From: a virus
Virus record (IMG/VR): IMGVR_UViG_3300030108_001618
Coordinates: 1-23,383 of that record
Strand: one strand, 5' to 3'
Length of the DNA: 23,383 nucleotides
The notes under the pieces were generated by a model, which did not search any database, had not been told where the DNA came from, and worked only from the letters and a program-made list of their open reading frames with translations. A program made the translations under genes and the position numbers. Within the stretch, counting starts at the first letter, position 1, and each line of letters starts with the position of its first letter. Below are positions 13,301-22,398 of the stretch, piece by piece.

Positions 13301-13410
13301 TACTACTAGTAGTACTAATAGTACTTACATACGTTTATCTGTTGATACTAGGTACTATATGTTACCAATCTCACTACTACTAGTACTACTATTAGTACTA
13401 CTACGTAGTA
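13301..13410. repeat. Inverted repeat A: ACT/AGT-rich arms
   Basis: TACTACTAGTAGTA at 13301-13314 is a perfect palindrome and runs into AGTACTAATAGTACT (13311-13325). The reverse complement of this block recurs at about 13373-13410 with small insertions (core TATTAGTACTACTA). The two arms could pair around a loop of about 50 bases, and each arm is itself self-complementary. Confidence 0.7.
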
Positions 13411-14859: not shown

Positions 14860-14934
14860 AATAAAGCACGGATTTATTAGAGGATACTTTGCGTCGATGA
14901 CAAGCTCAGTATTAGTCTCGGTTCGTGCTTTATT
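14860..14934 (+). promoter_or_regulatory. Stem-closed RNA leader before the 119-residue gene
   Basis: AATAAAGCACG (14860-14870) pairs exactly with CGTGCTTTATT (14924-14934) around 53 bases. Within the loop, GATACT can pair with AGTATT. It ends 18 bases before the ATG at 14953 and there is no U-tract, so it resembles the leader at 14319-14380 rather than a terminator. Confidence 0.6.
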
Positions 14935-15449: not shown

Positions 15450-15664
15450 AGGTGGCATAAGCCATCTACTCGCAGGTGTGTACAATCCTCCTTTCATCCG
15501 TGTCTTGTTCGCGTGTATGCACCTGCAAATTATTAAACTATGTACCTCATAGTTATAGGTGATGGGTAACCATTATAAAGATATTGACAGGCGAGTACTA
15601 GCTAATTAGCTGATAACAGGGATACTTTGATATCTGACTATCACTAACGAGGGTCAAGCCACCT
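15450..15664 (+). promoter_or_regulatory. Long structured leader upstream of the ubiquitin-like gene
   Basis: The 260 bases between the previous gene and the modifier gene contain no ORF of note but much potential structure. AGGTGGC (15450-15456) can pair with GCCACCT (15658-15664). A 13-bp stem, 15472-15484 with 15514-15526, has two G-U wobbles. A perfect 7-bp hairpin AACTATG/CATAGTT lies at 15536-15554, and the palindrome AGCTAATTAGCT at 15600-15611. A TTGACA at 15584-15589 has no matching -10 at proper spacing. Wobble pairing favours an RNA structure over a DNA site. Confidence 0.5.
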
Positions 15665-15709
15665 AAACTTTTAATTCAACAGATAACGCTAAAATAAGGA
15701 GCCTATATT

Positions 15710-15976
15710 ATGGCAAACGCAACAAGCGCACCTAGCGGTGAAAGAACAGTAAGTGTAAGTGAGAACGGTAGCTGGTCTACCAAAACAATCGTAGCAAATA
15801 CTATTGGCGAACTAAGAATAGCATTAGATATACCTAATGAAGCTACAGTAAACGTTCAAGACCAATTGTATACAGATAATTCATCTGCGATGCCAGTTAA
15901 CGAGCTAAATGATGATGGTACAACACGACCATTGTGTATTGGCTGGGTAGCTAACAATAAAACAGGCGGTTGTTAA
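15710..15976 (+). CDS. Ubiquitin-like modifier ending Gly-Gly-Cys
   Basis: An 88-residue protein preceded by AAGGAG 9 bases upstream. Predicted strand order (ERTVSVSEN, then WSTKTIVAN), helix (TIGELRIALDIP, residues 31-42), then strands (ATVNVQDQL and TRPLCIGWVAN) fits a beta-grasp fold like MoaD, PRTRC protein C and other ubiquitin-like proteins. The tail ends with G86-G87-C88. In ubiquitin systems E1 requires an exposed C-terminal GG, so the last Cys would need removal, a job for the JAB protease encoded two genes downstream. Neighbours are E2-like, JAMM and E1-like genes. Individual homology is weak by eye; the context and GG tail carry the assignment. Residues 1-10 look disordered. Confidence 0.8.
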   Translation: MANATSAPSGERTVSVSENGSWSTKTIVANTIGELRIALDIPNEATVNVQDQLYTDNSSAMPVNELNDDGTTRPLCIGWVANNKTGGC

Positions 15977-15991
15977 TTATAATTGTAATCA

Positions 15992-16014
15992 GGGGTCTGC
16001 ACAACGCAGGCCCC
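15992..16014 (+). promoter_or_regulatory. Hairpin between modifier and E2-like genes
   Basis: GGGGTCTGC (15992-16000) pairs with GCAGGCCCC (16006-16014), 9 bp including one G-U wobble, with ACAAC as loop. No T-run follows (AAACTATAAAGGAG and the next ATG come instead). It could stabilise the 3' end of the modifier message, slow readthrough, or be a processing site, which would let modifier exceed enzyme in amount. Confidence 0.55.
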
Positions 16015-16032
16015 AAACTATAAAGGAGAATT

Positions 16033-17655
16033 ATGAATTTGTTATTAGATTTTAACTCAAGTCCAGCAATTAATAAAAATATTGTAGAGTGTAGTAAATC
16101 TCCTGTAGAGTTTACAGAAACAGGAGCGCGCATTAAATTTGTTAGACCACCACGATATGATTCATTGGACCGACCATTGTGGATAGATATTCTTAATATT
16201 GATACATTGTGGGATAATGTAGATGCAGAGCAGTTTGCAAATAATACAGGCATGCAAGACATAATAGCGTTTAAAGAAGAGCTGGAAACAACAAACAAAT
16301 GGTTGTATGATGCTCTTGAAATAACAGATAAAATTGATGTTACTAAATCATATGCTTGGAAAAAAGGTTGTTATGATATCGTCAAAAATGCAATTACAAA
16401 AGCTCACAGATTTAACATGAGACCATCAGGAATGCCTAGTATATTCAATAGAATACAAGATAGTAGATGGATATACGACCAACTACAAAGACAAATGTCA
16501 CGTCTTGATACTTATCGTAATAAAGCTAAAGCAGCAGAAATAACACTTGATAGTAGTATCGAAAGTATTATTGAAAACCAACGAGCAGCTTATGATAATA
16601 TTATAGAAAGTACAAATCAAGCTAATGCGATGTCTGATTATTACAAAGTATATAATTATATCGAACCATCAACTGATAGTGTTAATATCCAATTATATAC
16701 AATTGTACATTGCAAATCAAAAGATATGACTATCATCAACAACAAAAACGAAGAGATATGTAAAATGCGAGTTCCTGAATGTTATCTTAAGTTTAATAGG
16801 CCATTGTACAAAGCATTAAATGGTGGTAATAAATACGGACTGCAATACAATGCAGCTGTTATGCACGGTAAACATCCATACATTAATGCAGTGCCATATC
16901 GAAGGTTAAATCATCCAAATATAGATAGATATGCATGGAGCACATTATGTTTATCTAGTTATACTGACGACATAGAACGTGCATTGTACAAAAATGATTA
17001 CATGTCTTTTGTTATGGGTATTATGAATTGGAATAATATTTATAATAAAGATGCAACTAATCCATATGCTGAAATCACACAAGTTATGACTTATGGCACA
17101 TTTCCAGAAGTTGAAAACGAAGATGAACTACATAGAATAAGAACAGCTCTTAACATTAGTCTACACGAGTTCTTTCGTGCTAAATACTTTAAACATGCAA
17201 TGACAGAACTTGATAGTGTTCAAAGAGATTGGAACGAAAGAATAACTAGAAATTATTCTCCATATGCAAGATATATTGTTGAAGAATATGATAGTAAGAA
17301 TTGTCCAACACGAAGTGTTTGTACTGGATATCAAAATCTTAAATCATATCTTGAATCAAATGCGCAGTATATGGTAGAAGAAATGGTAGGTAATTTTCTT
17401 ATTAACGACAATAGTAATGAGTTTGATGTAGGCTATGAGTTTCAAGAACTAGAATCAATACTAATGTCTATAAATGATTCTGTAAGACCTGAAAACTTGT
17501 GGGACCAATTGCAACAATTAAGGTATTCAGATGAAACTGATTACTGGGGTACAGCCCCGACAAAACCCGATAATAACCCTGATATTGCAGCAATGCAAGC
17601 TAAAATATCACAATGGGAAGAACAATTAGCAGCTTCAGGAGGTATAAATGAGTAG
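16033..17655 (+). CDS. E2-like ubiquitin-conjugating protein with large extensions
   Basis: This 540-residue protein (SD AAGGAG) sits second in the cassette. A central region, about residues 217-350, runs from a beta-rich stretch (VNIQLYTIVHC... and NKNEEICKMRVPECYLKF) to MHGKHPYIN, then H294-P295-N296-I and, 12 residues after His294, C306 in STLCLSS. The HPN...(I/L)CL order is the hallmark of E2 enzymes, in which the Cys forms a thioester with the modifier (classical spacing is 10). The following helices (DDIERALYKNDYMSFVMGIMNW) and YNKDATNPY resemble the E2 C-terminal part. Residues 140-200 are coiled-coil-like; residues 370-540 form a helical extension ending in a short coil. Typical E2s are about 150 residues, so the flanks are additions whose role (target binding or ligase-like) I cannot read. 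It overlaps the JAB gene by 8 bases. Confidence 0.7.
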   Translation: MNLLLDFNSSPAINKNIVECSKSPVEFTETGARIKFVRPPRYDSLDRPLWIDILNIDTLWDNVDAEQFANNTGMQDIIAFKEELETTNKWLYDALEITDKIDVTKSYAWKKGCYDIVKNAITKAHRFNMRPSGMPSIFNRIQDSRWIYDQLQRQMSRLDTYRNKAKAAEITLDSSIESIIENQRAAYDNIIESTNQANAMSDYYKVYNYIEPSTDSVNIQLYTIVHCKSKDMTIINNKNEEICKMRVPECYLKFNRPLYKALNGGNKYGLQYNAAVMHGKHPYINAVPYRRLNHPNIDRYAWSTLCLSSYTDDIERALYKNDYMSFVMGIMNWNNIYNKDATNPYAEITQVMTYGTFPEVENEDELHRIRTALNISLHEFFRAKYFKHAMTELDSVQRDWNERITRNYSPYARYIVEEYDSKNCPTRSVCTGYQNLKSYLESNAQYMVEEMVGNFLINDNSNEFDVGYEFQELESILMSINDSVRPENLWDQLQQLRYSDETDYWGTAPTKPDNNPDIAAMQAKISQWEEQLAASGGINE

Positions 17656-18616
17656 ACCTAACTTTATTATTAAAGAGAAAGCATGGAATACCATGCAACA
17701 ATATGCAAACATTGCATATGACAAAGACCAAAACGAGATATCTGGGTTGATACCGTACAGATTAACTGAACATCCTGTGTCAAACGAGACTGTGTATGAG
17801 TTGTTTGACCCAGTTATCTTAAAACAAGAAAACTCAGGAACAACAACAGAGCTTGATGGCGAAGCATTGCGAGATTACCAAGTCAAAGCTGGTATGAAAT
17901 ATGGAACAGACATTAAATTTTGTTGGTGGCATTCACATCATACAATGGGTGCATTCTGGTCAGGAACAGATGATAAGGAAATAAAAGCGTGGAAGAATGA
18001 CTCATGGTCACTTGCACTTGTTATCAATCTGTTTGGAGAATACAAACTAAATGTATCTGTTTGGAAACCAATAGAGTTTTCTGAAGATGTACCATTAGAA
18101 ATTATAAGAGATATTCCTAAAGCAACAAAGAAACAGCTTAAAGAGTATAATGAATTATGTTCTAATAAAACAGAAGTTATGAATACGGGCTGGCATACAA
18201 AAGGATATACTCCACGCAGTCAAATGAATATGTGGTACAATAAAAAAGAAGAAGATGCATTAGACCCTGATGCAAACAAAAAACTAAAATGGGTTAAAGG
18301 AGAATCTATAAATATCTATGCAGAACTTATCGAAGCGTTAGATGAAGCAATATCTGATATAGTAGATGATTTCTGCCAAGGTACTATAGATTACAAAGAA
18401 TATTCTAATAGAATCAAAATGTTAAACAAGGACTTAAAGTCAAGAAATGCAAAAGTTAAAATAAATATATTGCCACAAGGCAGTGTACTTGAAAAAGCTA
18501 TGACTATGCAACCTTGGGAACATTTAAAATATGATAACGAAGCTGTAGAAAAATCATATGATGATGCTAGATTAAGTAATTATCAAACAAACTATGGAGG
18601 TTATGGATGGGTATAA
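17648..18616 (+). CDS. JAMM/JAB-domain metalloprotease (ubiquitin-like isopeptidase)
   Basis: A 322-residue protein with SD AGGAGGT (17637-17643) 4 bases before the ATG. The JAMM signature is complete: E30 in QNEISG, H95-S-H97, then seven residues, S105, two residues and D108 (HSHHTMGAFWSGTDD). These residues bind zinc and catalyse isopeptide or peptide hydrolysis after a C-terminal GG in known JAB enzymes. The domain spans about residues 5-150. The remaining half is helical (about residues 222-275) with a Tyr/Gly-rich tail, not part of standard JAB. Expected substrates are the GGC-ended modifier (maturation) and conjugates (removal). It overlaps both neighbours, by 8 and 10 bases, supporting coupled translation. 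Confidence 0.93.
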   Translation: MSRPNFIIKEKAWNTMQQYANIAYDKDQNEISGLIPYRLTEHPVSNETVYELFDPVILKQENSGTTTELDGEALRDYQVKAGMKYGTDIKFCWWHSHHTMGAFWSGTDDKEIKAWKNDSWSLALVINLFGEYKLNVSVWKPIEFSEDVPLEIIRDIPKATKKQLKEYNELCSNKTEVMNTGWHTKGYTPRSQMNMWYNKKEEDALDPDANKKLKWVKGESINIYAELIEALDEAISDIVDDFCQGTIDYKEYSNRIKMLNKDLKSRNAKVKINILPQGSVLEKAMTMQPWEHLKYDNEAVEKSYDDARLSNYQTNYGGYGWV

Positions 18617-19278
18617 ACATGAGAAGCGAAGGCTTAGTAAACACTTTGCATGAATATACTTTTCATATACTAGGTTGCGGAGCTATAGGTAGCTCTGCAG
18701 CCACTCAGTTATTACGATGTGGTGCTAAAAACTTTGTGCTGTACGATATGGACAAAGTAGCAACAGAAAACATCGGCGTATCTCAGTATATGGATGAGCA
18801 TATTGGCATGTTAAAAACTGAAGCATTGGAAGAACATCTGATGAGTATTAATTGTAGGAACTTAGAAATAATACAATCACCAGAATACTTTAACATGTTT
18901 CGATATCAAAACAATAATGACATTGTAATATTAGGTTTTGATAGTATGAAATCTAGAAAACATGCAGTTCAAGAAATATGTTCAAACAAACGAACTAAAC
19001 CATTCTTGTTGATAGATGGTAGGATGGGTGGTGAACATTACCAGCAATATTTGTTTAAAGATTTGACACTAAATAAATATCTAAAAACATGGTATTCTGA
19101 CGATGAAGGTGATGCAGAACCATGCAATGTCAAAGCATCAAGTTATTGCTCAAATATGGCAGGTAGTATGATTGTTAACGCTATTAGGAAAGTAGTCACA
19201 AATAGTCCTTACGAAACAATGTTGACTTTTAACTTCCCTACAATGACAATACAAAAAAATACTTGCTTCCCAGCCTGA
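18607..19278 (+). CDS. Minimal E1/ThiF-like adenylating enzyme
   Basis: A 223-residue protein. I choose ATG 18607 because GGAGG (18596-18600) is 6 bases upstream; ATG 18619 would be too far. The nucleotide-binding loop GCGAIGS (23-29) is followed by the E1 hallmark LYDMDKVATENIGVSQ (about 45-60: D47, D49, N55, Q60), then a conserved Asp (D112 in LGFDSMKSR) with Arg. C173 (EPCN) is the likely catalytic Cys; C181 is a second candidate. Usual E1-like enzymes exceed 250-300 residues; this one is stripped to the adenylation core with no separate ubiquitin-fold or zinc domain. Expected role: adenylate the modifier C-terminus and hand it to the E2-like protein. Confidence 0.9.
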   Translation: MGINMRSEGLVNTLHEYTFHILGCGAIGSSAATQLLRCGAKNFVLYDMDKVATENIGVSQYMDEHIGMLKTEALEEHLMSINCRNLEIIQSPEYFNMFRYQNNNDIVILGFDSMKSRKHAVQEICSNKRTKPFLLIDGRMGGEHYQQYLFKDLTLNKYLKTWYSDDEGDAEPCNVKASSYCSNMAGSMIVNAIRKVVTNSPYETMLTFNFPTMTIQKNTCFPA

Positions 19279-19291
19279 CAATTAGTAAATT

Positions 19292-19326
19292 GATAGCTCG
19301 TCTTCAATCTCTGAGGACGAGTTATC
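19292..19326 (+). promoter_or_regulatory. Hairpin between the conjugation cassette and the replication genes
   Basis: GATAGCTCGTC (19292-19302) pairs with GACGAGTTATC (19316-19326), 11 bp with one G-U wobble; TTCA with TGAG extends it to 15 bp with an ATCTC loop. It is followed by GTTATCGTAAATAAGG rather than a U-tract, then the ATG at 19352. Candidate processing site or leader that separates the two gene blocks. Confidence 0.6.
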
Positions 19327-19351: not shown

Positions 19352-20026
19352 ATGAAACTAACAAAAGTAAAGAGAAAAGCTGTCTCTGTAAATCCCTCTA
19401 CTTTATTATTGTATGGAGCACCTAAAGTTGGTAAAACTACTATGCTATCTAATTTAGATGATTGTCTAATAATAGATACAGAAAAAGGTAGTCGTATGAT
19501 TGAAGGTTACATACAAGAAGTAAACAGTAGAGATGAGTTAATTGAAACATTGATAGCTATTAAAGAAAGTAATGATGTAAAGTATAAATATATAGCTATT
19601 GACACAATTGATAAAGTTGCAGAGTGGGCTGAACGCAGAGTATGCGAAGAAGAAGGTGTAAACTCTATTGCTGATTTAGCATTTGGTAAAGGCTATGGAC
19701 TTGTACGTGAAAAGGTAGCTAAAACTATTTCACATTTCAAAGAAGTAGCAGAACATCTTATCATCATTGGACATAGAAAAGTAGCATATGCAGTAACAGA
19801 AGGTAACCCTATAGTAATACCAGAATCTCTTGATTTAACAGGTAAACTAAAGAATGTTATCATGGCTGGTTGTGATGCTATTGGCTATGTATATCGTGAT
19901 GACAAAGAAAACCTAATGGTATCTTTTAAAGCTAATGATAGCATAGAAGCAGGTAGTAGATGTCCTCATCTAAAGGGTAAAGAAGTTAAATTTGAATGGA
20001 AAAATATATATAAGGAGGCTAAATAA
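19352..20026 (+). CDS. RecA-core AAA ATPase, Sak4-like recombination protein
   Basis: A 224-residue P-loop ATPase. Walker A GAPKVGKTT is at residues 22-30, then LIIDTEKGS (39-47), a Walker B-like YIAIDTIDKV (80-89) and a third strand LIIIGHRK (136-143). This set and size match phage ATPases of the Sak4/RecA-like group that assist single-strand annealing or homologous repair during replication. No separate DNA-binding domain is visible. Its gene is followed directly by a 202-residue partner, an arrangement common for this pair in phages. It is separated from the E1 gene by a hairpin. The general assignment is good; Sak4 status needs a profile search. Confidence 0.8.
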   Translation: MKLTKVKRKAVSVNPSTLLLYGAPKVGKTTMLSNLDDCLIIDTEKGSRMIEGYIQEVNSRDELIETLIAIKESNDVKYKYIAIDTIDKVAEWAERRVCEEEGVNSIADLAFGKGYGLVREKVAKTISHFKEVAEHLIIIGHRKVAYAVTEGNPIVIPESLDLTGKLKNVIMAGCDAIGYVYRDDKENLMVSFKANDSIEAGSRCPHLKGKEVKFEWKNIYKEAK

Positions 20027-20635
20027 ATGGCTATATTCAAACCAGAAACAACAAGTACAACAACAACTCCTAAGTCTTCATACTTAGGTGCAATAGAAGT
20101 AGGACCAGTAGGTTTTAAAGATAGAAGTGGTGATTTCCCAGGACAAGATTGGGCTGAAATATTCTTAGAGATAGAATTATCTGTTAAGGGTAGCGAATAC
20201 ACCAACAAAATGTCTTTATTAGGCAGACTAGATAAAGATAGTGAAGGTAAAATTGTAGGAGGTAGTGTACTTAAAAGAATGTACAATATCTTTGAAATGA
20301 TTGGATTTAAAGGTGGTCTTACTATTGATAAAAAATGGGAAGACGAAAATGGCAATGAAATTACTAATATTGCAGAACACTTAAACAATAATTTCAAAAC
20401 TACAAATCAAGAGTTTATTGCATACGCATACAAAAAGAAACCTAAAAAGCCAGGAGATAAAGTGTACACAGAAATGTGGCCAAAACTATGGCTAAATACA
20501 GAAGGCGGTAGAATGCAATGCGATAAAGATATTAAATGGTTAAAAGAAAATGGATATCTAAAAGAAGCTAGTCAAGATGATTTTGCTCCAAAAGGACAAA
20601 CTAACTTGGCTGACAATGCGCTAGCTAATCTATGA
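20027..20635 (+). CDS. Putative single-stranded-DNA-binding partner of the ATPase
   Basis: A 202-residue protein starting one base after the ATPase stop, with SD AAGGAGG. Residues 15-110 are beta-rich (YLGAIEVGPVGFKDRSGDF, then WAEIFLEIELSV...), followed by basic linker KKKPKKPGDK and a mixed C-terminal part ending LADNALANL. Size, basic linker and location after a Sak4-like ATPase and before a primase-helicase suggest a ssDNA-binding or DUF669-like helper, but I see no diagnostic motif. The stop overlaps the primase start (ATGA). Confidence 0.6.
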   Translation: MAIFKPETTSTTTTPKSSYLGAIEVGPVGFKDRSGDFPGQDWAEIFLEIELSVKGSEYTNKMSLLGRLDKDSEGKIVGGSVLKRMYNIFEMIGFKGGLTIDKKWEDENGNEITNIAEHLNNNFKTTNQEFIAYAYKKKPKKPGDKVYTEMWPKLWLNTEGGRMQCDKDIKWLKENGYLKEASQDDFAPKGQTNLADNALANL

Positions 20636-22398
20636 ACTATGTAGAGATAGCAGTTGGAAGCCCCAATAATCGGGGCAACCTAGTGTTGCGCAGCGAGCTT
20701 GGACATTATCTTCCTAAAGATGGTAGCCCATTATATCGCTCTGTTTATCTCTACGGTGATGATGCAAAAGAATATGCTAATTCACATAGGACCTTAAAAG
20801 GCTATCACGGTAAGCGTGGTATTGACAATATACTTATTGATATAGATAGAAAAGACAACTCAGATGAATACACACTAAAACAATTGCGTAATACCCTGCT
20901 CCATTTAAATACTTTAGAAGTATTAGATGAGAGTATACAATGTTATTTTAGTGGTACTGGTTATCATATCGTCATAACAAATAAAGTATTCAATTTCCAA
21001 GCTAGTGATAGCCTGCCCTATCAAGTCAAACAAACAATGTCAAATCTGTTTGAAGATATAGATAGTAGTATATATATGAGAAGTGGAATATATAGAGTTT
21101 CTCACACTAAAAATCAAAAAACAAACCTATATAAAATACCTATCACATTACATGAAGCACTAAACTATACTTATCAACAGATACACGACTTGGCTAAAGA
21201 CCCTCGTTTTGAATATCCATATGAATTATTAGATGGTGATAATGAGCTAGAAGGCTATATATGCCTAGATGTCCCTAGAATACGCCAACAAAGCAAAGTT
21301 AGTGAGCCCACGAAGATAGTACCTTGTGTGCAAACAATGCTTAGAAATGGCCCAATACAAGGCTCTAGACACAATACGCTACTTAGGATAGCTAGTTATC
21401 TCAAAAGAAATGGTGTTCCTAGTGATTATGCAAAAGTAATGATATTGCATTGGAATAACAATATGATGAATGAAGAATCAATAATACAAAAAATAGAATC
21501 TGTTTACAATGGAAACTACAGATACAGTTGTCATGACTCAGTAATGAAAGAACATTGTCAAACAAAATGTATTTACTTTAAAAACAAAAATTATCATATT
21601 GATGTTAAAGATTCTAGCACATTACAAAAAGAATACGAAGAACGATTAGAAACAAACTTCCAAGGTAGAACTGTACCTTTATCAGATATGTTTGATTTAG
21701 ATGGTTATGACACACAAATATATCCAGGAGAGCTTGTTACTATATTCGGTCCAACAGGGTCTAACAAAACTACATTAGCGCAAAATCTTGCATTGGGTGT
21801 AGATTTTAAAAACGATAGAATAAACAAACAATGGCAAATACCAACATTGTTTTTATCTTTAGAACTTTCAGCATGGTATATGCACAGACGTCATTTGCAA
21901 ATTGTATCTGGTTTATCAAAAGAACAAGTTAATGCTAACTACAAAGAAGTATACAAAAAACATTCTGATGAACTACAACATTTGCATATACAAACAGTAA
22001 CGCCAACTCTGACATCAATACAAGACAAGATAAAAGAATTAAATCCATATCTTGTTGTTGTTGATTATATTGATTTGGTAGATACGCCAAAAGATGTTAA
22101 AGGAGAATATGAACAAATTAAATACATATCTCATAACTTATCTAATATGGCTGTAAATCTAGACGTTATTATTATACAAGTATCACAAGTCAGTAGAGAG
22201 TACAGTAGAAATGAAGTTTTAGACCTGTATGCAGGTAAAGGTTCAGGTGCTATTGAGAATGCATCACGTAAAGTGATTGGTCTTAATGGTCAAGCTGATT
22301 CTAATATTAAAGAAATTCATATGTACAAAAATACTGATGGTGAATTATTTGACGTAAATGTAGAATGGCGTGAAAGTTTTAGATTAAGGAGAGTCTAA
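20632..22398 (+). CDS. Bifunctional primase-helicase (AEP-type primase plus DnaB/RecA-type helicase)
   Basis: A 588-residue replication protein. N-terminal part: metal-binding D70-x-D72 in IDIDRKD, SGTGYHIVI (107-115) with H112, and YRVSHTKNQ...KIP (154-170), the order of archaeo-eukaryotic primase (AEP) catalytic motifs. Middle: four Cys (C232, C300, C309, C313) spaced like the Fe-S or zinc cluster of PriL-type C-terminal domains. C-terminal part: Walker A GPTGSNKTT (373-381), LFLSLELS (406-413), Walker B LVVVDYID (474-481), and VIIIQVSQVSR (512-522), typical of DnaB/KaiC-type helicases. It should make primers and unwind DNA at the phage fork. No polymerase is in the window. Confidence 0.9.
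   Translation: MNYVEIAVGSPNNRGNLVLRSELGHYLPKDGSPLYRSVYLYGDDAKEYANSHRTLKGYHGKRGIDNILIDIDRKDNSDEYTLKQLRNTLLHLNTLEVLDESIQCYFSGTGYHIVITNKVFNFQASDSLPYQVKQTMSNLFEDIDSSIYMRSGIYRVSHTKNQKTNLYKIPITLHEALNYTYQQIHDLAKDPRFEYPYELLDGDNELEGYICLDVPRIRQQSKVSEPTKIVPCVQTMLRNGPIQGSRHNTLLRIASYLKRNGVPSDYAKVMILHWNNNMMNEESIIQKIESVYNGNYRYSCHDSVMKEHCQTKCIYFKNKNYHIDVKDSSTLQKEYEERLETNFQGRTVPLSDMFDLDGYDTQIYPGELVTIFGPTGSNKTTLAQNLALGVDFKNDRINKQWQIPTLFLSLELSAWYMHRRHLQIVSGLSKEQVNANYKEVYKKHSDELQHLHIQTVTPTLTSIQDKIKELNPYLVVVDYIDLVDTPKDVKGEYEQIKYISHNLSNMAVNLDVIIIQVSQVSREYSRNEVLDLYAGKGSGAIENASRKVIGLNGQADSNIKEIHMYKNTDGELFDVNVEWRESFRLRRV

Follow-up and report, generated by a model that had tools for sequence, protein, structure and literature searches.

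A predicted ubiquitin-like conjugation cassette in a phage

Does a phage own a ubiquitin-like conjugation pathway? The question is raised by four genes in a stretch of viral DNA of 23,383 nucleotides (hereafter the window), which is part of a linear IMG/VR virus record of 28,975 bases (IMGVR_UViG_3300030108_001618). Ubiquitin-like conjugation in bacteria is known as an anti-phage weapon, and the phages described here seem to own the complete set, comprising a ubiquitin-like protein (Ubl), an E2, a JAB protease and an E1. The original prediction, made from the letters of the window, placed these genes adjacently on the plus strand at 15710-19278 with the last three overlapping by 8 and 10 bases, and all of the open reading frames (ORFs) were confirmed. 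Its core reading of a phage-owned Ubl, E2, JAB and E1 was supported by structural models, conserved catalytic residues and linkage, the evidence for the E2 being moderate. A phage-encoded ubiquitin-like conjugation pathway is probably the best explanation of this locus. The genes and motifs of the cassette are listed below.

15710-15976, plus strand: Ubl gene, 88 residues, C-terminal TGGC
15959-15970, plus strand: candidate mature end of the Ubl (...KTGG), followed by a one-residue tail (Cys)
16033-17655, plus strand: E2-like gene, 540 residues
About residues 181-357 of the 540-residue protein, plus strand: E2-like core, inside helical extensions
16873-16884, plus strand: HPYI (residues 281-284), proposed to correspond to the HPN motif of E2s, from an alignment of 45 E2s
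16948-16950, plus strand: Cys306, candidate E2 catalytic cysteine, conserved in 45/45
17648-18616, plus strand: JAB/JAMM metalloprotease gene, 322 residues
17930-17971, plus strand: H95 to D108 of the JAMM motif (E30 with H95-S-H97, S105 and D108), from the motif alignment
18607-19278, plus strand: E1 gene, 223 residues, single ThiF-type adenylation domain
18673-18693, plus strand: GCGAIGS of the E1
19123-19125, plus strand: Cys173, candidate catalytic cysteine of the E1, conserved in 139/140

The cassette is conserved and linked in related phages

Relatives of the E1 at E 0.001 were present in 76 INPHARED records, from Bacteroides crAss-like phages, Flavobacterium psychrophilum phages and a few others. 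The order Ubl, E2-like, JAB, E1 was found in crAss001 (gp79-gp76), where the cassette lies between the primase and uracil-DNA glycosylase genes, and likewise in Fpv1 and nine further phages of crAss type; the exceptions within this order were a split JAB in Fpv1 and an HNH ORF after the Ubl in cr106_1. Since the E1s of these phages are only about 23-31% identical to that of the window, the recurrence of the gene order is beyond chance.

Two overlapping IMG/VR scans returned 425 and 91 viral E1 relatives, and the best 80 of each were examined. The linkage set comprised 145 E1 loci distinct by their last 150 residues, one of which (L034) was a ThiF-like match without a cassette, and linkage was counted only at loci having enough upstream DNA. 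JAB lay upstream of E1 at 56/56 window-type and 74/74 crAss-type loci, JAB with E2 at 39/39 and 71/72, and Ubl, E2 and JAB all in order at 32/33 and 68/71, respectively. A separate search anchored on DnaB gave 13 loci, and all 10 of those that reach the place of E1 have it (6 lie on contigs already known through E1, and 4 are new). The linkage in related phages on which the original prediction had staked its reading was thus near-absolute. At L102, L103 and L106, the E2-like ORF was separated from JAB by ~3.3 kb of small ORFs, and no Ubl was recognizable.

Comparison of window-type with crAss-type profiles joined the E1s at 4e-27, with C173 aligned, and the JABs at 8e-9. Among 84,980 bacterial and archaeal genomes, a scan combining two short degenerate patterns with a tblastn check, a method that could miss divergent cellular relatives, found one relative, on a 3.7-kb contig. 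This is probably a phage contig within a metagenome-assembled genome, because genes judged by eye to be gp75-like and uracil-DNA-glycosylase-like follow the crAss001 order. Eighteen plasmid records were matched; the ten matches listed were partial, of ThiF type and at most 34% identical. The cassette is real, conserved and, as far as searched, phage-specific.

The modifier

The AlphaFold model of the 88-residue protein (pLDDT 79.7, pTM 0.64) had strands and helix in the order bbabb..b, as in the beta-grasp fold that had been forecast for it. A Foldseek search of the model against the PDB gave no match at E ≤0.001; the best was 2kan (E 0.022, probability 1.00), and the top rows included ubiquitin-like domains, the Mth1743 ThiS-like protein, MoaD, EloB and DIX domains. 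VIA returned FAT10, ISG15, ubiquitin, molybdopterin synthase and ThiS chains at Z 5.5-6.5. The matches of both searches were thus largely beta-grasp proteins of Ubl type, at modest scores. Library scans covered 20 window proteins (10 in Pfam and NCBIfam, and those plus 10 more in PHROGs), several of which were without any match; the Ubl alone gave nothing better than E 0.07 in the three libraries, and PDB and Pfam sequence searches with the Ubl profile gave no useful match.

The C terminus was conserved. K[TV]GG was invariant in 37/37 distinct window-type Ubl relatives (39 distinct rows were listed, of which 2 were left out as a fragment or duplicate), followed directly by the stop in 23/37 and by unrelated tails of 1-11 residues in 14/37. 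A second Ubl subfamily, typically 65-72 residues in all, ends in NNKVGG or NNKTGG and a stop. The original prediction drew attention to a GGC end; the protein does end in TGGC and the K[TV]GG is conserved, but the final Cys is one version of a variable tail. The terminal Cys was accordingly rejected as a functional residue, since the tail varies among relatives. By its sequence, the variable tail after the GG resembles those of pro-ubiquitins, and tails of varying length would call for a trimming protease. The crAss-type Ubls have a long extension after a K-S-G-A-like stretch, which reads K-S-G-A in crAss001 and K-S-G-G in Fpv1. On its model and the conserved end of the window-type relatives, the 88-residue protein is predicted to be a beta-grasp ubiquitin-like protein with a C-terminal Gly.

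The E1 and the JAB protease

The fourth protein, proposed to be ThiF/E1-like, matched Pfam ThiF at 3.9e-20, above the cut-off, in one match over residues 11-217. The PDB profile matches were led by UBA5 (3.9e-9) and included MccB, MoeB, ThiF and Cap2. Adenylation residues were kept throughout, as G23, G25, D47, D49, N55, K70, G110-F-D112, M114, R117 and R139 (window numbering) were present in 140/140 E1s of at least 200 residues, and C173 in 139/140; shorter E1s, like JABs under 250 residues, were left out of the motif counts. Individual residues are assigned the roles that they have in ThiF/E1 proteins. The protein thus appears to be a minimal single-domain E1. At L004 (4164-4835), the E1 has no single reading frame (the ORF is 142 residues), yet tblastn covers all 223 residues; this would be either sequencing error or decay.

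The JAMM protease was borne out with the predicted EX(n)HSHX7SX2D spacing, E30, H95, H97, S105 and D108 being invariant in 16/16 aligned JABs, the window included. Alone, the window JAB matched Pfam Prok-JAB at 9.4e-4, under the cut-off; the 21-member JAB profile found the proteasomal deubiquitinase RPN11 first in the PDB, at 1.3e-5. HxHx7SxxD/E with the upstream E was intact in 120/126 distinct JAB ORFs of at least 250 residues. The six lacking it (L117, L130, L137, L141, L159 and L161) have gaps of 551-2129 nucleotides between the E2 and JAB ORFs; the five inspected were C-terminal pieces of interrupted genes, and the layout of L161 is like that of L141.

An E2-like core in the 540-residue protein

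The AlphaFold model of the 540-residue protein (pLDDT 80.2, pTM 0.71) comprised a helix, a strand meander (204-257), a loop bearing Cys306, and helices. VIA, which realigned candidates taken from Foldseek, listed 50 rows, of which about four fifths were ubiquitin or UFM1 E2s, mostly aligned over 177-357 of the model (112-133 residues, rmsd near 4, Z 4.1-5.0). Knl1 RWD and BRCC45 are kin of the E2 fold. A search of BFVD with the model gave six large unnamed proteins first (E 3e-20 to 1e-11), then a 435-residue protein of crAss-like phage cr128_1 (E 0.010, probability 0.89) and a 420-residue unnamed protein (E 0.018, probability 0.96); at rank 10 was a phage "Type II CBASS E2 domain" protein (probability 0.25). 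The 435- and 420-residue proteins are probably cassette E2s themselves, because their lengths equal those of the second cassette gene of cr128_1 and of Fpv1 gp57.

In the alignment of 45 E2 relatives, from which the weak matches at L102, L103 and L106 were left out, C306, W333, Y337, P344 and C424 were invariant. The original prediction had read HPN...CL as the E2 signature, which did not hold. The HPN (residues 294-296) lies in a hypervariable loop and was rejected, and the family motif is HPYI at 281-284, with H in 36, F in 8 and Y in 1 at the first place, P in 42 and Y in 43. The E2 fold that was likewise predicted is a candidate on moderate evidence, an E2-like core having been modeled. 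The E2 label is thus a moderate one, resting on predicted fold, motif and position, with no significant sequence match. The best match of the window E2 alone in Pfam, NCBIfam and PHROGs was no better than E 0.07, its tblastn against phages gave no match, and a Prok-E2_B search in its own 28,975-base record found none and gave no signal in any control either.

In the helical part at residues 424-430, C424 was present in 45/45 and C430 in 37/45 E2s, with CPxRxxC in part of them. CPxRxxC is a pattern with a zinc role, and from sequence C424-C430 is a possible metal site.

Comparison with known systems

Bil (BilABCD) has Ubl, E2, JAB/JAMM and E1 genes, and the letters A-D give the same order as in the window. 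The likeness to Bil noted in the original prediction therefore stands for gene set and order, but membership failed on the domain and motif features tested. According to PMC11354881, BilA has two Ubl domains, whereas the window modifier has one short domain of 88 residues; BilD has an inactive and an active adenylation domain and a Cys domain, whereas the window E1, judged by length and domain match, has one domain; and the BilB CEHH motif is C, E at +6, H at +8 and H at +13, whereas the window has C306, D312, I314 and Y319. The +6 column in the 45 E2s held D in 40, E in 4 and Q in 1. PADLOC gave no family at all for the window Ubl, E2 and JAB, and Bil was not among the best 25 of 32 families for the window E1; the crAss001 E1 matched BilD at 2.5e-5. 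Bil membership was rejected on the single Ubl domain, the single-domain E1, the lack of H at the CEHH places and the 540-residue E2.

The PRTRC plasmid system corresponds to type 6d among the operons of Iyer et al. 2006. Type 6d has separate Ubl, JAB, E1 and E2 proteins, as here, but its E2 lacks the upstream His and has the downstream one, whereas the cassette E2s have the upstream His in 36/45 and no downstream His reaching 85% (PMC1779556). The NCBIfam models PRTRC_A (14.7 of 101.8 bits) and PRTRC_ThiF (26.6 of 144.75 bits) were matched under their cut-offs, with no other PRTRC match. With these scores and the differing His pattern, PRTRC membership was rejected.

Type II CBASS Cap2/Cap3 and related E1-E2 fusions were also compared. 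The window E1 matched PADLOC E1-E2 models, at best 3.2e-13, and Cap3 is a JAMM protease. Cap2 is an E2-E1 fusion, whereas E1 and E2 are here separate genes accompanied by a dedicated Ubl gene, which excluded membership; no CD-NTase was found among the window proteins scanned, the window being part of a fragment. Lambda-type tail proteins I and K are likewise phage-borne Ubl and JAB, but these two are the only members of the toolkit in their tail operons (PMC1779556), whereas the cassette has replication neighbors and E1 and E2-like genes; a lambda-tail type was rejected on this neighborhood and on the absence of E1/E2 in the lambda type.

Other close counterparts are the gene sets of crAss001 (gp79-gp76) and of Flavobacterium phage Fpv1 (gp58-gp53), with the same order and JAMM and E1 motifs. 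They differ in a shorter E2 with HSHV/HSHL and C.G motifs and in the long C-terminal extension of the Ubl. Their genes are annotated as "hypothetical", "metalloprotease domain" and "thiamine biosynthesis".

Selection and interrupted genes

Among the more distant window-type relatives L011-L021, identity was 23-33% for E2, 70-77% for E1 and 70-94% for Sak4. Between the window and five nearer relatives, dN/dS was 0.13-0.41 for E2 and 0.14-0.17 for JAB; it was 0.014-0.07 for E1 (four comparisons), 0-0.07 for Sak4 and 0.03-0.10 for DnaB. No gene counted exceeded 0.41. E2 was above JAB in three of five comparisons, and Ubl above E2 in one. That E2 diverges while E1 stays constant is consistent with direct contact between E2 and targets that change; loosened constraint on the E2 extensions would give a similar picture.

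Visual inspection covered eight crAss-type loci picked because they had gaps or split genes (L117, L130, L136, L137, L141, L159, L032 and L192). JAB was cut at or next to the HSH codons in seven of them, and in L136 it was E2 that was cut at its HSH codons. Rfam identified a group I intron in 4/8 (L117, L130, L136 and L159). Group I introns favor conserved codons of needed genes, and their presence at active-site codons therefore fits a catalytic function. By eye, several interrupting elements carry homing-endonuclease-like ORFs, and an "endonuclease" is annotated in Fpv1.

Proposed pathway and alternatives

The cascade itself, apart from its targets, is quite probable. In the pathway that we envisage, JAB would trim the residues after the GG of the Ubl, and E1 with ATP would adenylate the C-terminal Gly. 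E1 probably then takes the Ubl as a thioester on Cys173, as its conserved residues suggest, and E2 would accept it on Cys306 and join it to lysines of target proteins. Because no separate E3 was recognized in the cassette, target choice probably falls to the large, diverging helical regions that surround the E2 core. JAB might in addition take the tag off again, which would make the modification reversible. The position beside Sak4 and primase-helicase genes suggests expression with the replication genes and a tag acting during takeover and replication. According to PMC10136315, the replication, recombination and nucleotide genes of crAss001 belong to the middle class, which starts at 10-30 min, and since the cassette lies among genes of these kinds, middle expression would be expected; the early-gene status proposed for the window cassette is likewise inferred from its neighbors.

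The likeliest targets may be host proteins of defense or nucleic-acid machinery, a choice that we make tentatively. Somewhat more tentative is a broader picture, in which this would be a core, phage-specific viral Ubl pathway of the window family, Steigviridae crAss-like phages and Fipvunavirus. It would evolve separately from the systems of cells; one large E2 would both conjugate the modifier and select targets, host and phage proteins would be steered during replication, and JAB would reverse the modification.

Several observations weigh against a conjugation pathway. The best VIA Z-score of the Ubl was 6.5, and the tool calls Z <8 common; since this is so and DIX domains score alike, the fold alone does not prove that the Ubl is a modifier. 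The end of the crAss-type Ubls is not a strict di-Gly: Ala, Ser or Asn frequently takes the place of the second Gly, and even the loose pattern [ST]G[GAKSN] was present in 51/69 and absent in 18/69 in the stretch searched. At 223 residues, the E1 has no room for a Cys domain of its own. For the E2-like core, VIA Z-scores of 4-5 are modest, Foldseek against the PDB gave no E2 among the best 50 of 141 matches, and no sequence-library or PDB sequence search linked the protein to known E2s, profiles included. Between window-type and crAss-type profiles, the Ubls matched at 7e-4 but with a probability of 27, and the E2s at E 0.068 (probability <1; 0.029 and 0.015 with larger sets) over 17-23 columns, which is not significant. 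A recognizable partner was missing at the crAss-type loci L171, L175 and L187 and at L102.

The same cascade could instead act on the phage's own replication/recombination or virion proteins, regulating the phage program rather than the host. Its constant place beside replication genes fits this, as does a near-universal retention in the loci examined that is more like that of a core gene than of an arms-race accessory. The identity of E2 (23-33%) against that of Sak4 (70-94%) in L011-L021 would be odd if the targets were slow-changing phage proteins, and gp76-gp79 are not named in the main text of the crAss001 structure paper, nor are gp76 and gp77 in the first crAss001 paper, by word search. 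We regard targets of this kind as possible but rather unlikely.

Near-universal retention among replication genes also bears on a Bil-like weapon that would tag tail or capsid proteins of co-infecting phages, for which accessory, patchy spread would be expected. Bil reportedly interferes with phage assembly. The gene set equals that of Bil (PMC11354881), but the domain make-up is not that of Bil, and this role is improbable.

A sulfur-carrier pathway of the ThiS/CysO type, in which E1 would activate the Ubl for a thiocarboxylate, JAB would trim it, and the product would feed a modified base or cofactor, is less probable again. The best NCBIfam match of the E1 is the ThiF model PRK08644 (78 bits against a cut-off of 159), Pfam ThiS was matched by 2/23 aligned Ubls (best 1.6e-4), and Ubl, E1 and JAB without E2 form a known sulfur set (PMC1779556). 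The cassette, however, has a linked fourth gene with an E2-like core and an invariant Cys, and no sulfurtransferase-like match was found among the 20 window proteins scanned, which come from a fragment and of which several match nothing. Finally, that this is a captured, degenerate bacterial defense or decoy operon, non-enzymatic in the phage, is very hard to credit, as although the toolkit is known from defense systems and the E1 matches PADLOC E1-E2 models, catalytic residues are kept in 139-140/140 E1s and 120/126 JABs, dN/dS is ≤0.41, and the sole match in prokaryote genomes is on a phage-like contig.

The conjugation pathway proposed here would give a likely function to the crAss001 "thiamine biosynthesis" and "metalloprotease" genes. 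The cassette is kept at nearly every locus examined and is common to groups that include cultured crAss-like human gut phages. Through it, tagging of host proteins by phages with a ubiquitin of their own becomes a testable question, and experiments are feasible now because crAss001 and Fpv1 have named bacterial hosts. The compact E1 and large E2 forms bear on how ubiquitin systems arose.

Previous descriptions

Iyer et al. 2006 described bacterial operons with E1/E2/JAB/Ubl, and tail operons of lambda type that contain Ubl and JAB (PMC1779556). No paper describing a phage Ubl-E2-JAB-E1 cassette was found in open-licence PMC, a scope that leaves out subscription papers and most preprints. By word search, the words Ubl, JAB and E2-like were absent from the jumbo-phage survey of 2021, neither ubiquitin nor ThiF occurred in the Crassvirales review and the crAss-like survey, gp76-gp79 were absent from the main text of the crAss001 structure paper, and gp76 and gp77 were absent from the first crAss001 paper. 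Other papers drawn on were PMC12660748, PMC7824862, PMC10172136 and PMC6235969, and a word search of PMC7886860 gave no match. One GenBank record already names its gene "E1 enzyme family protein".

Neighboring genes and other features of the window

After the cassette come genes for a Sak4-like annealing protein, a 202-residue protein of unknown function, a DnaB-like primase-helicase and an HNH/endonuclease VII-like protein. The genes for the major head protein, portal and large terminase are on the strand opposite to the cassette. TerL and portal gave no host assignment, being 21-27% identical to those of phages of unrelated hosts (15 matches listed of 731 and of 41).

15696-15701, plus strand: AAGGAG, ribosome-binding-like, 5' of the Ubl gene, read from the sequence
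16022-16028, plus strand: AAAGGAG, a similar site 5' of the E2 gene, read from the sequence
19352-22398, plus strand: Sak4-like AAA_24, 202-residue unknown and DnaB-like primase-helicase genes, from PHROG/Pfam and synteny in relatives

In two of six sequences compared (L022 and L026), the Ubl gene is preceded by an additional small ORF that has a start context of its own. An Rfam scan of the window gave no match. Two strong hairpins at 15450-15526, between the gene for a 119-residue protein and the Ubl gene, had a fold z of -5.2 and were conserved across five relatives; in L022, as read by eye, both sides of one pair are altered, from C-G to T-A. An intergenic hairpin 5' of the same 119-residue gene (14860-14934, fold z -3.0) was near-invariant; by eye, its inner stem in L004 has an apparent compensatory change of U-A to C-G. 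Between E1 and Sak4, a 15-bp hairpin (19292-19326, z -6.4) has no T run after it and is perhaps an mRNA-processing or stability element. The divergent region between gene blocks at 13301-13408 holds dense direct and inverted repeats resembling TACTACTAGTAGTACT, and is a possible control or origin region.

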